Assembly: GCA_002706335.1 (NCBI GenBank) | Contig: PAKZ01000009.1 | Span: 186,001-250,000, forward strand | Source of the DNA: Ahrensia sp. | GTDB taxonomy: Bacteria; Pseudomonadota; Alphaproteobacteria; Rhizobiales; Rhizobiaceae | Length of the DNA stretch: 64,000 bases | Direction: 5' to 3' | Shown: positions 49,933-55,625 of the stretch, piece after piece | Layout of the letters: each line of letters begins with the position of its first letter | Position numbering within the stretch: position 1 is the first letter of the stretch | Made by a program: the position numbers and the translations under genes | Notes under the pieces: model-generated | Databases searched by the model: none | What the model saw: only the letters and a program-made list of their open reading frames with translations | What the model was told of the DNA's origin: nothing

Positions 49933-51012
<1,080 letters not shown>

Positions 51013-51072
51013 CTTGTCCCTCACCCTTAGGTTATCGCCGCACAGGGCGCAAACTGCAAATTCCCTCTTTTG

Positions 51073-51101
51073 TTTGTACGCTATTTGTTCCGTTTTTGCA
51101 A
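51073..51101 (-). promoter_or_regulatory. recA promoter with SOS-box-like site
   Basis: On the minus strand TTGCAA (51101-51096), a 17-bp spacer and TACAAA (51078-51073). Within it, GTAC-N7-GTTC (plus strand 51076-51090) matches the alphaproteobacterial LexA site GTTC-N7-GTTC with one mismatch. LexA there would block polymerase. Confidence 0.65.
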
Positions 51102-51169
51102 TCTGCGCAAGACACTGAAAATTAAGCGAATTTGAAATTCGTTTTGTTTATGTTCCGCACAATGACCTT

Positions 51170-51197
51170 CGGATGTATCCCCTTGAAACATGTAAGA
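51170..51197 (+). repeat. Left terminal inverted repeat
   Basis: 28 bp, beginning CGGATGTATCCCC and ending ATGTAAGA; identical to the reverse complement of 53569-53596. The preceding 8 bp, ATGACCTT, are the target duplication. Confidence 0.95.
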
Positions 51198-51217
51198 GGA
51201 TTTGCTATATATGTTTC

Positions 51218-52138
51218 ATGAGCACGAAACATCCCAAACCCCCGACGATTCGCCAGTTCCTTGAACGGTTTCCTGATGATGATTCCTGTTTGGATCACCT
51301 GATGGAAACCCGTTACGGGAAGCGCCACACATGCGCCAAATGCGGCAAGGAAGCCAACTTCCACCGCGTTAAGGCCCGTCGCTGCTATGAATGCGATTTC
51401 TGTGGGTATCAGGTGTACCCGACTGCCGGGACACCCTTTGAGAACACTCGCACGTCCCTGCGTGACTGGTTCCATGTCATGTTCATGTTCTGCGCGTCCC
51501 GCAATGGCGTCTCTGCCAAGGAAGTGGAGCGCACGATTGGCGTGACGTACAAAACCGCGTGGCGCATGTGCAACCTGATCCGCCAGTACATGGGCTATGT
51601 CGATGGCGACGAGCCCCTTGGCGGTCCCGGTGGTGGCATTGTCGAAACCGACAAGGCCTTCTTCGGTGGCTATGACAAGCGCGGTGAAGACGACAAGGTT
51701 ATCGTGCTCGGCGCTTCCGAACGCGGTGGCGATGTCATCACTTCGATCATTCCGAGCCGTCGCGAAAGCAGCGTCATGCACAAGCTGACGAAGTGGGTTC
51801 GTCCCGGTTCACGGGTTGCAACCGATGAAGGTCTCGCGTTCGCCAATCTGGTTGAATACGGCTATCGCCACGGCACCGTGAACCACTCGAAAAAAGAGTA
51901 CGTGAAGGGCGACATTCACACGAACAACATTGAAGCCTTCTGGAGCCACGTGAAGCGGTCCATCAAAGGCACCTATGTCAACGTTTCTCCGAAGTGGCTC
52001 CAGACTTACCTTTGGGAGTTCGAGTACCGCCAGAACCTTCGGAAGCAGCCCCACGTGATGCTTGAGCTTCTTTTGCAGGCTTTCCCAAGGCCGGTTTCGT
52101 CGCCATCGCGTGCAACAGACGATCAAAGCGTTGCGTAG
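51218..52138 (+). CDS. IS1595 family (ISXO2-like) transposase
   Basis: A 306-residue transposase. The N-terminal part has a zinc ribbon, CAKCGKEANFHRVKARRCYECDFCG (in part), then VYPTAGTPFENTRTSLRDWF, a family hallmark. The ISXO2-like catalytic domain has the acidic residues in GGIVETDKAFFGG, the second Asp in RVATDEGLAF and HTNNIEAFWSHVKRS, where IS1595 members use Asn/Glu as the third residue. All parts are intact. A start 45 bases upstream begins inside the terminal repeat; the ATG at 51218 gives the usual N-terminus MSTKHPKPPTI. Confidence 0.93.
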   Translation: MSTKHPKPPTIRQFLERFPDDDSCLDHLMETRYGKRHTCAKCGKEANFHRVKARRCYECDFCGYQVYPTAGTPFENTRTSLRDWFHVMFMFCASRNGVSAKEVERTIGVTYKTAWRMCNLIRQYMGYVDGDEPLGGPGGGIVETDKAFFGGYDKRGEDDKVIVLGASERGGDVITSIIPSRRESSVMHKLTKWVRPGSRVATDEGLAFANLVEYGYRHGTVNHSKKEYVKGDIHTNNIEAFWSHVKRSIKGTYVNVSPKWLQTYLWEFEYRQNLRKQPHVMLELLLQAFPRPVSSPSRATDDQSVA

Positions 52139-52143
52139 TTTCG

Positions 52144-52662
52144 CTAGTCATTTACCGGCAGCCCCAACGCTTGAAGCCGGATTCGCATCGACACGGGCGA
52201 CACATCGAAATCCCGCGCCAACTGCGCCAACGAACGACCCTGCATGGCTCGGTGCTCAACCCTCGATCTTGGCATAAGAATGTTCGCGGCCATGTTGTTA
52301 GCTTGATATTCGTGCTGCCGAGTGAACGGCGCTGGCGGGTTGGTCGCCGGGTCGGGGTCAAATAACCTGTCTGCGTGACTGTGAACCAGCAAATCGCGGT
52401 GGAGCAGGAAGTGCGACAACTCATGCGCCGCCGTGAATCTCTGGCGTACGGGGCTTTCGGTTGTATTCACAAAAATAGTGAAATTATCGCCGTCACGCTC
52501 AATCTTTCCGGAATAGCCGTCCGGCATTGCGACAGGCCGATAATTAATTCCAAGCGCCCGAATTGCATCCTCGACGCGAACCGGCTCGCCGCGCGACATA
52601 AAATGGGAGACAATATCGGCGTGGCTTTTAAGCGGGGTTTCCACCATCTCCACCATCTCCAT
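52144..52662 (-). CDS. ImmA/IrrE-family metallo-endopeptidase (transposon passenger)
   Basis: A 172-residue zinc peptidase of the ImmA/IrrE family. The zinc motif is FTAAHELSHFLLH (HExxH form HELSH) and the third-ligand helix is EYQANNMAANILMP, as in ImmA. The C-terminal SLAQLARDFDVSPVSMRIRLQALG is a short helix-turn-helix-like segment common in this family. Such proteases cleave HTH repressors or antitoxins in phages and ICEs. No separate HTH repressor gene is present in the element. The start is uncertain: a GTG at 52671 and ATGs at 52662 and 52656 all lie within the end of the overlapping upstream gene. Confidence 0.88.
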   Translation of the reverse strand: MEMVEMVETPLKSHADIVSHFMSRGEPVRVEDAIRALGINYRPVAMPDGYSGKIERDGDNFTIFVNTTESPVRQRFTAAHELSHFLLHRDLLVHSHADRLFDPDPATNPPAPFTRQHEYQANNMAANILMPRSRVEHRAMQGRSLAQLARDFDVSPVSMRIRLQALGLPVND

Positions 52663-53086
52663 TTTCTCCACCGCGGAACATTTCCGACAACTGATCTTCC
52701 GTCATCGTGGACGGAAGGATTAGATCTCTATTCTCGGGTTTTCCGAGCCATTCCACAACCGCCCTTGTGATCGTGGCTTCTCCGTCTTCCTGAAGGTACT
52801 TGCCTACGTACGTCTCAGTCTCGTCTTCGGCGGTCTTCTTGCCGATGAATGTCGCCTGCCGCCAAACGATACTGCCCCAACCAATCGCAGCAAACGCCAA
52901 AACTATGGTGAGAACGGCGAGGACGACAGTCACAAGGTCAAGCCGACCTATCTGGGCAGCCATGTGCACAGAATCAACGAAGTCCTGCGACTTTTCTATT
53001 AAAGGACAGCTTACCGTCTCATAAAGGCGGATTAGGGGCTTGTCGGGGCACTGAGGCAAAACCTGGTAACCAGCTTGCGCCGACAT
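52628..53086 (-). CDS. Single-pass membrane protein (transposon passenger)
   Basis: A 152-residue protein. One membrane segment (LVTVVLAVLTIVLAFAAIGWGSIVW) splits an N-terminal part with two cysteines (LPQCPDKP, VSCPLIEKS) from a C-terminal cytoplasmic part that is acidic and ends in EMFRGGENGDGGDGGNPA. The ATG at 53086 follows GGAGGAAACGGGC; an earlier ATG lies 21 bases upstream. Its 3' end overlaps the start of the ImmA-type gene by about 35 bp, so the two form a coupled unit. No known family is recognised. Confidence 0.7.
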   Translation of the reverse strand: MSAQAGYQVLPQCPDKPLIRLYETVSCPLIEKSQDFVDSVHMAAQIGRLDLVTVVLAVLTIVLAFAAIGWGSIVWRQATFIGKKTAEDETETYVGKYLQEDGEATITRAVVEWLGKPENRDLILPSTMTEDQLSEMFRGGENGDGGDGGNPA

Positions 53087-53214
53087 GCCCGTTTCCTCCC
53101 GACTCATATGGTGCGCGATATGCACATTATCCACAACCGGGGGAAGAATGGAACATCGCCGAAACACTAAGGCGAGAATCGGAGTAAATTCATCTCTTCA
53201 ACATGGAGAGAAAG

Positions 53215-53469
53215 ATGTTTGGAACAGCAAAATGCGGGCATTGCGGCCAAATCGGAACTAAAATCATGCAAATCGAGCCAAACGGAGCGGCCTATAAGCA
53301 ATCCGCCATATGCTGCAACTCGTGCAATGCTATCCTTGGCGTCACCGGCTACTATGACACTGGGACGCTGCTGAAAAAGGCCGAGAAAGAGCGTGATGAA
53401 TTGAAGCAAAGAATTGAAGGCATCGAACACGCGATAAATCAAATCGGCTATTTGCTCCAGAGCCGATGA
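53215..53469 (+). CDS. Small zinc-ribbon protein with coiled-coil tail (transposon passenger)
   Basis: An 84-residue protein. CGHCGQIGTK and ICCNSCNAILG give two CxxC pairs about 24 residues apart, a zinc-ribbon arrangement. The C-terminal half (LLKKAEKERDELKQRIEGIEHAINQIGYLL) is a predicted coiled coil. The second ATG of the frame is used, because GGAGAGAAAG precedes it directly. It is divergent from the membrane protein gene across 128 bp and lies just inside the right end of the element. Function is unknown. Confidence 0.72.
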   Translation: MFGTAKCGHCGQIGTKIMQIEPNGAAYKQSAICCNSCNAILGVTGYYDTGTLLKKAEKERDELKQRIEGIEHAINQIGYLLQSR

Positions 53470-53568
53470 CCTGAACGCCTTCAATGTGCCTGTATCCTGC
53501 CGCGAGCATCTTCATGTGCTCGGTGGTCTTTGGCGATTCGATTCTGTCCATTAAATCAACGCGCTCCA

Positions 53569-53596
53569 TCTTACATGTTTCAAGGGGATACATCCG
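53569..53596 (-). repeat. Right terminal inverted repeat
   Basis: 28 bp, the exact reverse complement of 51170-51197. It is followed by the second copy of ATGACCTT (53597-53604). Confidence 0.95.
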
Positions 53597-53604
53597 ATGA
53601 CCTT

Positions 53605-53626
53605 CGGATGCATCCCCCTGGAACAC
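53605..53626 (+). repeat. Relic resembling a transposon left end
   Basis: CGGATGCATCCCCCTGGAAC and the next two bases match the first 22 bases of the terminal repeat at 18 positions; all four differences are transitions. It directly follows the right target duplication. Confidence 0.5.
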
Positions 53627-53709: not shown

Positions 53710-54684
53710 GTGAAAAAGGACAGCGCGACAGGTTGGATGCTGCTCGGCATCGGCGGAGCGCATATGGACCGGATCGGCCATATATACGGCTCCTATCATG
53801 CCGGCGCATCCAATCCCGGACGCCTGACGACAACGGTCGGCGGCGGGACGCTTAATGCATTGCGCACGGCTTGCCTCGCCGGGACCGGTCCTGTCGCATT
53901 GATCTCGGCGCGGGGCGGCGACCATGACGGCGCGATCGTCGCTGATACGGTCGAGGCAGCCGGCCTGGGCGACCTTTCCGCGGTGTTTCTCGACCGGCGC
54001 ACCGCGAGCTATACGGCGATTCTCGACGCGAGCGGCGAGCAGATCGCCGGTCTGGCAGACATGGAGATCTACGAGACCGCCCTGCCCCGGCAACTGCGCC
54101 GCAAGGCGCTCCGGGAGGCGATTGCCTCGGCAAACGCCATTCTGGTCGACGCCAATCTGCCCGTTGCGGGGCTGGAGGCCGCCGCCGGCCATGCCACCGG
54201 TCCGATCTTCGCCATCGCCATCTCGCCGACCAAGGTGCTGCGCCTGACCGCGATTGCCGCGCGGATCGATACAATCTTCATGAACAGGCGCGAAATGAAG
54301 GCCCTGACGAGCGAGGACAGCGACGCCCCGGGTTTGGCCGGATTGGCGGCACTCGGCTTCAACCGCGCAGTCGTCACCGGCGGCGCGGGGCCTGTTCTCG
54401 TGCAGGACGCAGGCACACGGCACGAAGTATCTCCGCCCGCGCTTGACGCCGTCGTCGATGTCACAGGCGCGGGTGACGCGCTGGCCGGCGCGACGATCCA
54501 TTCGCTTCTTCGCGATCCCGGCCTTGCACTCTGCGACGCCGTACGGTTCGGTATCGCGGCGGCGCAAATGACGTTGCGCACGGAAGGGCCGGTGGCGGAG
54601 ACGCTCAGCGGACCGGAACCGGAAGCGATCCGCGCCGCATGCACAATCCGGGAAATGCAACCAAGCAAGGAAGGCGCAACGTGA
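53710..54684 (+). CDS. psuK: PfkB-family kinase, probable pseudouridine kinase
   Basis: A 324-residue PfkB/ribokinase-type sugar kinase. The N-terminal glycine pair motif is TTVGGGTLNALRTACLAG and the C-terminal catalytic motif is DVTGAGDALAGAT with the catalytic Asp. The pairing with psuG, whose GTG start overlaps its stop, identifies it as the kinase that phosphorylates pseudouridine before cleavage. The start is a GTG. The transposon lies 114 bp upstream and may have separated it from its original promoter. Confidence 0.88.
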   Translation: MKKDSATGWMLLGIGGAHMDRIGHIYGSYHAGASNPGRLTTTVGGGTLNALRTACLAGTGPVALISARGGDHDGAIVADTVEAAGLGDLSAVFLDRRTASYTAILDASGEQIAGLADMEIYETALPRQLRRKALREAIASANAILVDANLPVAGLEAAAGHATGPIFAIAISPTKVLRLTAIAARIDTIFMNRREMKALTSEDSDAPGLAGLAALGFNRAVVTGGAGPVLVQDAGTRHEVSPPALDAVVDVTGAGDALAGATIHSLLRDPGLALCDAVRFGIAAAQMTLRTEGPVAETLSGPEPEAIRAACTIREMQPSKEGAT

Positions 54685-55625
54685 TCGCCATTCAAATATC
54701 GCCCGATGTCGCCGAAGCGCTGGCGGACGGCAACGCGGTCGTCGCCCTGGAATCGACGATCATCACCCACGGCATGCCCTATCCCGACAATCTCGCGATG
54801 GCGCGGTCGGTTGAGGCGATCATCCGCGAAAACGGAGCGGTGCCGGCGACGATCGCCGTGATCGACGGAACGCTGCATGTCGGGCTCGACGAGACCCAGG
54901 CGGAAAAGCTGGCGCAGGCGCAGGCGCCGCTTAAACTGTCGCGTGCCGACCTCGCCTTCGCCATGGCGCAGCGGCTCACCGGCGGCACGACGGTCGCCGC
55001 TACGATGATGGCGGCCCACAAGGCCGGCATAGCCGTCTTCGCGACCGGCGGCATCGGAGGCGTGCATCGCGGTGCGGAAGAGAGTTTCGACATCTCCGCC
55101 GATCTCGGCGAACTGGCGCGGACCCCGGTGACGGTCGTCTGCGCGGGCGCCAAGGCGATCCTCGACGTGCCGAAGACGCTGGAAGTGCTGGAGACGCATG
55201 GCGTGCCCGTCATCGCCTACCGGCAGGACGACTTCCCGGCCTTCTGGTCGCGCGAATCGGGCCTTGCCGCGCCGCTGAGGCTCGACGATCCGGAGGAAAT
55301 CGCCGGCTTCATGGCCGCGCGCCGCGAACTCGCGGGTTTCGGCCACGGCGGCGTATTGATCGCCAATCCGGTACCGGAAGCCGACGAGATTCCGGCGGGC
55401 GAGATGAACGCGGTGATCGAACAGGCTGTCACGGAAGCCACGAAAGCAGGTGTGGCCGGCAAGGCGGTCACGCCATGGCTGCTCCAGCGCATTCTCGACA
55501 TCACCGAAGGCAGGAGCCTGAAGACCAATATCGCGCTGGTCGAAAGCAATGCCCGGTTGGCAGCGCGGATCGCCGCCGACTTCGCGGGAAACAGCCGGAA
55601 AAAATCCATCGGTTTCATGGTGTGA
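54681..55625 (+). CDS. psuG: Pseudouridine-5'-phosphate glycosidase
   Basis: A 314-residue enzyme that splits pseudouridine 5'-phosphate into uracil and ribose 5-phosphate. Conserved parts are VVALESTIITHGMPYPDN, GLDETQAEKLA, KLSRADLAFA with the catalytic Lys region, TTVAATMMAAHKAGI, FATGGIGGVHRGAE and FGHGGVLIANPVP. The GTG at 54681 overlaps the psuK stop and follows AAGGAAGGCGCAAC. An upstream ATG in frame lies within psuK and is not favoured. Confidence 0.95.
   Translation: MIAIQISPDVAEALADGNAVVALESTIITHGMPYPDNLAMARSVEAIIRENGAVPATIAVIDGTLHVGLDETQAEKLAQAQAPLKLSRADLAFAMAQRLTGGTTVAATMMAAHKAGIAVFATGGIGGVHRGAEESFDISADLGELARTPVTVVCAGAKAILDVPKTLEVLETHGVPVIAYRQDDFPAFWSRESGLAAPLRLDDPEEIAGFMAARRELAGFGHGGVLIANPVPEADEIPAGEMNAVIEQAVTEATKAGVAGKAVTPWLLQRILDITEGRSLKTNIALVESNARLAARIAADFAGNSRKKSIGFMV

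Follow-up and report, generated by a model that had tools for sequence, protein, structure and literature searches.

Most insertion sequences (ISs) are thought to choose their targets loosely, and in the case of IS911 and IS30 the target resembles the terminal repeat. Tn7-like site-directed transposons use a conserved host locus as a safe landing site, and within the IS1595 family members of the ISNwi type (ISNwi1) carry cargo. One account of this family lists the groups ISPna2, ISH4, IS1016, IS1595, ISSod11, ISNwi and ISNha5 (PMC8101967); MTnSag1 and tISCpe8 are described as combining an IS1595-type transposase with passenger genes (PMC5704250), and ISApl4, of the IS1016 group, as preferring A/T-rich 8-bp repeats at non-coding and intragenic places (PMC12561309). 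The closest targeting precedent found is TnGBS/ISLre2, which is described as inserting at a fixed distance upstream of sigma-A promoters, a choice seen as limiting the cost to the host (PMC3942029). We analysed a stretch of 64,000 nucleotides from Ahrensia sp. (contig PAKZ01000009.1, positions 186,001 to 250,000; hereafter the window), in which the region upstream of recA is occupied by an IS1595-family element with cargo genes. Like its near relatives, this element is found a fixed few base pairs upstream of a LexA (SOS) operator, in most cases the one of recA or lexA.

Like the rest of the IS1595 family, the branch to which the element belongs has the DDE_Tnp_IS1595 domain, an N-terminal zinc ribbon, 8-bp duplications and inverted ends; unlike the rest, it has cargo in nearly all its bounded members, this cargo is swapped wholesale, and insertions are beside LexA boxes. 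Insertion at a fixed distance upstream of a promoter is shared with TnGBS, ISLre2 and ISKra4, as these Mutator-like DDE elements are described, but their transposases are of another family, their target is a general promoter and not a LexA operator, and TnGBS-type insertions are oriented whereas the present elements occur in both orientations. The transposase studied here belongs to IS1595 and not to the Mutator-like (p-MULT) type. As with Tn7-like elements, the landing site is a conserved and apparently safe host locus; unlike there, no dedicated target-selector protein was recognised, the element having one transposase gene and variable cargo. No report of a transposon or IS targeting LexA boxes or the region upstream of recA was found among the titles and abstract openings listed, some lists being capped and few subscription journals being represented.

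A preliminary description of this DNA had read 28-bp perfect ends and an 8-bp duplication, and both are confirmed, the two arms being perfectly complementary (automatic repeat detection gives 29 bp because one duplication base lengthens the match; the true arms are 28 bp). Its view of a mobile IS1595-type element with cargo is borne out by the intact transposase, ends, duplication and cargo open reading frames (ORFs). A degenerate second end to the right of the duplication and a LexA box 6 bp to its left went beyond that reading. The element has no DNA match in any of five congeners. The features of the site are as follows.

51170-53596, plus strand: IS1595-family element with cargo, 2,427 bp, with inverted repeats and target duplication; one copy in its own genome
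51141-51155: recA-distal LexA box GTTTTGTTTATGTTC, differing at one base from GTTC-N7-GTTC and separated by 6 bp from the duplication; putative determinant of the target
51076-51090: second, recA-proximal LexA-like box GTACGCTATTTGTTC
51162-51169: target duplication ATGACCTT, left copy, 8 bp
53597-53604: target duplication ATGACCTT, right copy, 8 bp
51170-51197, plus strand: left terminal inverted repeat, 28 bp
53569-53596, minus strand: right terminal inverted repeat, 28 bp, perfect complement of the left arm
53605-53625, plus strand: relic end left by an earlier element, CGGATGCATCCCCCTGGAACA, at exactly 8 bp outside the right end
49933-51024, minus strand: recA, the host gene with the occupied upstream region; protein 94.6-97.4% identical to RecA of the five congeners

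Position of near relatives relative to LexA operators

The best 80 of 130 transposase-relative loci, together with the window, made up a first sample of 81. Elements were bounded by terminal repeats plus a duplication matching at 6 of 8 bases or better; 63 of the 80 could be bounded in this way, and the 17 of 81 loci without bounded ends were dropped. An enlarged sample, to which loci from a further set of genomes were added, comprised 179 loci, some of them fetched twice, of which 114 were bounded and 104 non-redundant elements kept. By transposase identity to the window element these fall into 52 at 55% or more (window included), 48 at 40-55% and 4 below 40%; the 17 loci of at least 55% identity outside the 52 were in part repeat fetches and in part not boundable.

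The alphaproteobacterial LexA motif is given as GTTC-N7-GTTC (PMC3323433). In the first 64 elements, the 60 bp outside the duplication contained this motif or its complement exactly in 30 cases and, when one mismatch was allowed, in 47; the corresponding shares of 9,629 background windows were 0.3% and 6.1%. The place of the box is nearly fixed: at 3-9 bp, 28 of the 64 have an exact, 15 a one-mismatch and 4 a two-mismatch box. In the enlarged sample, a box with at most one mismatch lay 3-8 bp outside the duplication in 40 of the 52 near relatives (27 of the 40 exact), in 13 of the 48 at 40-55% and in none of the four below 40%. At control offsets of 12-17, 20-25, 28-33 and 36-41 bp the counts were 2, 10, 7 and 0 of 52, the 10 and the 7 being largely the second box of recA/lexA promoters. 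Random insertion points in the same loci were boxed in 119 of 14,348 cases (0.83%), giving a binomial p of about 1e-72, uncorrected for kinship; such p-values overstate the case because the species are related. Clustering at 80% nucleotide identity left 40 representatives, of which 29 were boxed; of the 10 elements from the added genome set alone, 6 were. Three further elements beside recA have AGAC-N7-GAAC, with two mismatches, exactly 6 bp away.

The boxes occur in two geometries: in 34 of the 40 boxed near relatives the box has GAAC outward and lies at 6-8 bp, and in the other 6 it has GTTC outward and lies at 4-5 bp. These geometries largely track a quick transposase tree, with L070, L105 and L111 as exceptions (the placement of L044 in this tree is void). 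An alignment of the 34 bp outside the duplication shows nothing but the box conserved across both main spacing classes; the class with a 7-bp spacing keeps a few A/T columns besides. A target that resembles the terminal repeat was rejected, as the identity between the box-side flank and the repeat was 0.266 versus 0.265 for mismatched pairs (45 GAAC-type elements) and 0.314 versus 0.313 (11 GTTC-type elements).

To name the target genes, we scored the boxed side, allowing boxes of up to two mismatches, and counted recA when its start lay within 450 bp of the element end; the neighbours of L047 and L180, at contig ends, were not scored. The boxed-side gene was recA in 25 and lexA in 8 of the 52 near relatives (33 together), and the recA insertions occur in both orientations, 12 by the left and 13 by the right end. 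TIGR00498 confirms lexA in the 5 scanned of the 8, and in L045 lexA also lies beyond the opposite, unboxed end. When only boxes with at most one mismatch are considered, the 40 elements divide into 22 at recA, 8 at lexA and 10 elsewhere; NCBIfam names among the neighbours a UvrD/PcrA-like helicase (L064), DNA polymerase III alpha (L074) and a YifB/ComM-like ATPase (L065), and by eye we recognised coaBC (L067) and an MraZ-like ORF (L068). Of the 48 elements at 40-55%, four are next to recA, three of these with a box; coaBC adjoins L071 (NCBIfam) and L076 (by eye). The window's own clade of 14 members (SH-aLRT 98 in the quick tree) sits without exception at recA (13) or lexA (1), three of its members with the two-mismatch AGAC box.

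In 5 of the 64 elements scanned (those of the window, L036, L039, L045 and L077), the element end that faces away from the box has a relic end at exactly 8 bp outside it. In the recA-kinase intergenic region of one congener without the element (G001, locus L123), the box is followed by 7 bp, 8 bp and then an end-like relic; this solo end beside the recA-distal box is what an earlier insertion has left behind. By eye, the box is present in the other four congeners as well, none of which has a relic at the recA locus. All five keep the recA-kinase synteny and, by eye, the LexA box, with diverged sequence at the insertion site. Exact 8-of-8 duplications were found in 59 of 81 loci, a count that is biased upwards because bounding mostly required a duplication. 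L053 and L056 occupy the same place in two species, and their duplications are identical within each element and differ at 2 of 8 bases between the two. The insertions at recA look repeated, because they come in both orientations, with exact duplications and different cargo, because other genes are hit as well, and because the element has no match in the five congeners. The arrangement fits insertion that is measured from the box, with newer elements pushing older ones away.

Some elements of the sample show other kinds of site. By eye, the box-less L088, L093, L102, L103 and L110, some of them from sphingomonads, lie at the centre of a REP-like palindrome of the CACCCTGA-ACTTGTTT-CAGGGT type, and L079, L080, L149 and L208 are seemingly inside other palindromes; target choice may have shifted between sub-branches. 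L082, L104 and L112 have a common duplication, AAATCCTA, next to repeated TAGGA motifs, and these sites look like another operator-type target.

Explanations for the placement at recA and lexA

Judging from these sequences, the observations as a whole are very probably accounted for by a branch of IS1595 that bears varying cargo and has a transposase directed to LexA operators, chiefly the recA and lexA ones. The layout is box, 6 to 8 bp, 8-bp duplication and element for boxes with GAAC outward, and the same with 4 or 5 bp for those with GTTC outward. The transposase would recognise either the LexA-operator complex or the operator DNA, and the operator would mark a place ahead of an SOS promoter that is conserved and safe to land in, the box and the SOS gene being left intact. 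Later insertions would then land between the box and the older ends.

The dominance of recA and lexA is in keeping with a transposase that recognises operators occupied by LexA, or else a longer motif. That operator-bound LexA acts as the landing beacon and that repeated landing makes the site a cargo-exchange station is a reading we hold tentatively, giving it appreciable yet less than even credence; if LexA is the beacon, transposition into the recA and lexA control regions could be gated by DNA damage. Alternatively, the transposase might read the operator DNA itself, as an extended GAACAnAnnnGAACA motif, with no role for the LexA protein, an explanation that we regard as possible and on balance somewhat doubtful. 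The narrow polarity and spacing of the boxes, which largely track the transposase tree, argue for it, as does a structure model that predicts a zinc ribbon and a helix-turn-helix-like (HTH-like) helix pair in the transposase. However, recA and lexA account for 33 of the 52 elements, despite the 123 perfect pairs of half-sites in the window genome by itself, and three insertions are at AGAC half-sites. Half-sites by themselves do not suffice, because the window element used a one-mismatch box in a genome with those 123 perfect matches.

Three further explanations were considered. The target could be a sigma-70 promoter, the LexA box being a mere passenger of SOS promoters; the fixed-distance insertion of TnGBS/ISLre2 upstream of sigma-A promoters is a precedent from another family (PMC3942029), but strong non-SOS promoters would be expected as targets too, and in the aligned 34 bp outside the duplication the box is conserved but no column resembling a -35 element, so that we consider this quite improbable. 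A single ancestral insertion at recA, inherited vertically with later replacement of cargo, would account for the frequency of recA, and cargo replacement does exist. The preliminary description had itself named one ancestral site for transposase and cargo as the outcome contrary to its view. The recA site does recur (25 of 52), but not always: both orientations occur there, other genes are targeted and the cargo varies. With the exact duplications (finder-biased, as said above), the concerted duplication differences of L053 and L056 and the absence of a match in five of five congeners added, this explanation becomes very improbable. Random or AT-biased insertion, with copies upstream of recA and lexA surviving as harmless, draws on the near-universal presence of these two genes and on the position of the elements upstream of the box; yet ordinary intergenic sites would far outnumber those at recA and lexA, and the narrow spacing, the relic ends in exact register and the 0.83% background are not what selection alone would produce. 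We give it next to no credence.

Several observations weigh against targeting of LexA operators. With one mismatch allowed, a box is still lacking in twelve of the 52 near relatives (three of these have the AGAC variant) and in 35 of the 48 relatives at 40-55%. Many of the 48 are from sphingomonads, whose elements mostly use other sites, and several lie at palindrome centres by eye; the rule therefore belongs to sub-branches. The four elements below 40% identity show no box, which with n = 4 is a weak control. The window genome contains 123 perfect GTTC-N7-GTTC matches (control 74), yet the element used a box with one mismatch. Relic-like matches occur at unrelated distances in L079, L086 and L107, with scores of 8.8-13.0 versus 9.2-31.2 for the five in register. 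The boxed L058, L062, L070 and L081 have neighbours that were not named, and at L047 the contig breaks off. The bias towards recA and lexA could also owe something to selection against insertions elsewhere.

If LexA operators are indeed the target, an element with one transposase seemingly finds a specific SOS operator across many genera, and how a DDE transposase picks its target becomes directly testable. The branch links mobile DNA to the control of the DNA-damage response, it would offer a naturally occurring means of inserting DNA at a chosen site, with a slot for exchangeable cargo, and the region upstream of recA and lexA is a simple place to find many short, mostly unannotated cargo genes.

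Cargo of the branch and of the window element

The elements form an alphaproteobacterial IS1595 branch in which nearly all bounded members carry cargo between the transposase and the right end. The window element had been called unusually long for IS1595, which fails for its own branch: in 99 of the 100 bounded, non-redundant elements with 40-100% transposase identity, the window's among them, the stretch beyond the transposase exceeds 400 bp, and among the 52 near relatives only L135 has a smaller cargo space. The bounded elements of the first sample measure 1,479-2,979 bp, with at least 546 bp from the transposase match to the right end. A transmembrane (TM) ORF of at least 90 aa is present in 48 of the 52 near relatives and in 29 of the 48 at 40-55%, versus 28% of 1,068 control segments from the same loci. 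For ten cargo proteins outside the M78 family, Pfam gave no match at 0.01. The cargo families counted are lower bounds, and some chosen cargo ORFs look spurious (for example in L038, L056, L064 and L065).

Near-identical transposases carry unrelated cargo. L036 and L037 are 96% identical over nucleotides 1-959 and have nothing detectable in common beyond, and in L053/L056, L057/L059, L063/L048, L063/L094 and L063/L052 the transposase half matches, and beyond it nothing but the final 23-83 bp of the right end. In 10 of 15 pairs compared, only the transposase half and at most the right end were in common. Somewhat more is shared by L085/L098 (an extra 30 bp near the right end) and L033/L036 (an extra 24 bp); L071/L076 have 131 bp of cargo in common, and window/L039 and L136/L137 also share cargo. 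Tandem copies at one site would make cargo exchange easy: build-up of elements followed by recombination between them could join one transposase half to different cargo halves.

The cargo of the window element consists of three ORFs, the third being divergent from the other two.

52144-52671, minus strand: M78 (ImmA/IrrE-type) metalloprotease; PF06114 3.4e-19; PADLOC capP 1.7e-24; intact HELSH; GTG start uncertain
about 52628-53098, minus strand: one-TM protein, overlapping the gene of the protease; in the aligned form, the first ATG is at 53086; no Pfam match above cut-off
53203-53469, plus strand: 88-aa zinc-ribbon-like ORF (P0004) with two CxxC pairs; weak Lar-like match 8.1e-4, below cut-off

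The protease has both the M78 domain and an HEXXH motif, and the HE and the second H are kept in all four aligned proteases. In tblastn searches of the fetched loci, its homologues were found inside L037, L039, L041, L136 and L137, with homologues of the TM protein beside them in the first four; a longer fetch of the L137 place (L201) shows an overlapping TM ORF upstream of the protease. All five elements are at recA. Between the window and L039, the pair has diverged more at synonymous than at nonsynonymous sites (pS/pN 0.78/0.28 and 0.71/0.33), with synonymous sites near saturation. No relatives of the 88-aa ORF were found in the fetched related loci, plasmids or phages, and it is for this reason regarded as an orphan. 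Recurrence of all three genes between similar ends, as the preliminary description had envisaged, thus holds for the protease/TM pair in several species and not for the 88-aa ORF. When 387 genomes of the order were searched with the TM protein at 1e-6, the 386 others gave no match, nor did plasmids or phages; one distant match (26%) was found in a viral contig. The protease has relatives in 29 plasmid records, at less than 60% identity, and none in viral contigs. The window cargo comprises a two-gene module, one-TM protein plus M78 protease, borne by several elements of the branch.

CapP/CapH, ImmA/ImmR and IrrE/DdrO are known, with their regulation, as pairs of a protease and a regulator. The window element likewise encodes an M78 protease, but its partner is a one-TM protein, and no HTH partner was recognised; in particular, the HTH repressor expected next to the protease in a CapP/CapH pair was not found in the three cargo ORFs beyond weak matches. 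From the M78 family one may guess at a damage-responsive regulatory or defence role of the pair. The idea that the cargo is driven by the adjacent LexA box found no support, since the box can be at either end (at recA, 12 left and 13 right) and the TM cargo runs antisense in 43 of 48 cases. A search for LexA boxes inside the elements, up to 200 bp from the ends, gave no signal either, with 8 of 52 at the left and 4 of 52 at the right end versus 5 of 52 in one shuffle of the left stretches. Inside the window element there is a single match with one mismatch, GAACATCGCCGAAAC at 53151, and it may be due to chance.

Transposase, terminal repeats and neighbouring genes

51218-52138, plus strand: IS1595 DDE transposase with N-terminal zinc ribbon; PF12762, PF12760, NF033547

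Membership of IS1595 is supported by an ISXO2-like DDE domain (PF12762 1.9e-36; NF033547 8.9e-51, 172.8 bits against a cut-off of 75), by the N-terminal zinc ribbon (PF12760 3.9e-8), and by the 8-bp target duplication with terminal inverted repeats. Across 42 aligned transposases, window included, C39, C42, C59 and C62 of the ribbon are invariant, and so are D145, D203 and E239, which we infer to be the catalytic triad. The structure model has a pLDDT of 88 and retroviral integrases as its top PDB matches; the ribbon and HTH-like helix pair mentioned above were read from its predicted helices by eye. A LexA-like fold in the transposase was considered and rejected, as none was among the 50 PDB matches listed. 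Plasmid relatives of the transposase amount to 326 records, every one below 60% identity, and the Nitrobacter winogradskyi element L063 falls in the same transposase branch.

The terminal repeat (51170-51197, 53569-53596) encodes ATG TAT CCC CTT GAA ACA TGT AAG, that is, MYPLETCK. The transposase frame is open from within the repeat, as is the cargo frame in L036 and L042, and translation might start there.

Next to recA, at 53710-55625, the window contains genes which we take, by eye, to be a PfkB-like kinase and a pseudouridine-5'-phosphate-glycosidase-like gene. This three-gene neighbourhood of recA is kept in all five congeners and in 6 of 7 other genomes of the family examined.

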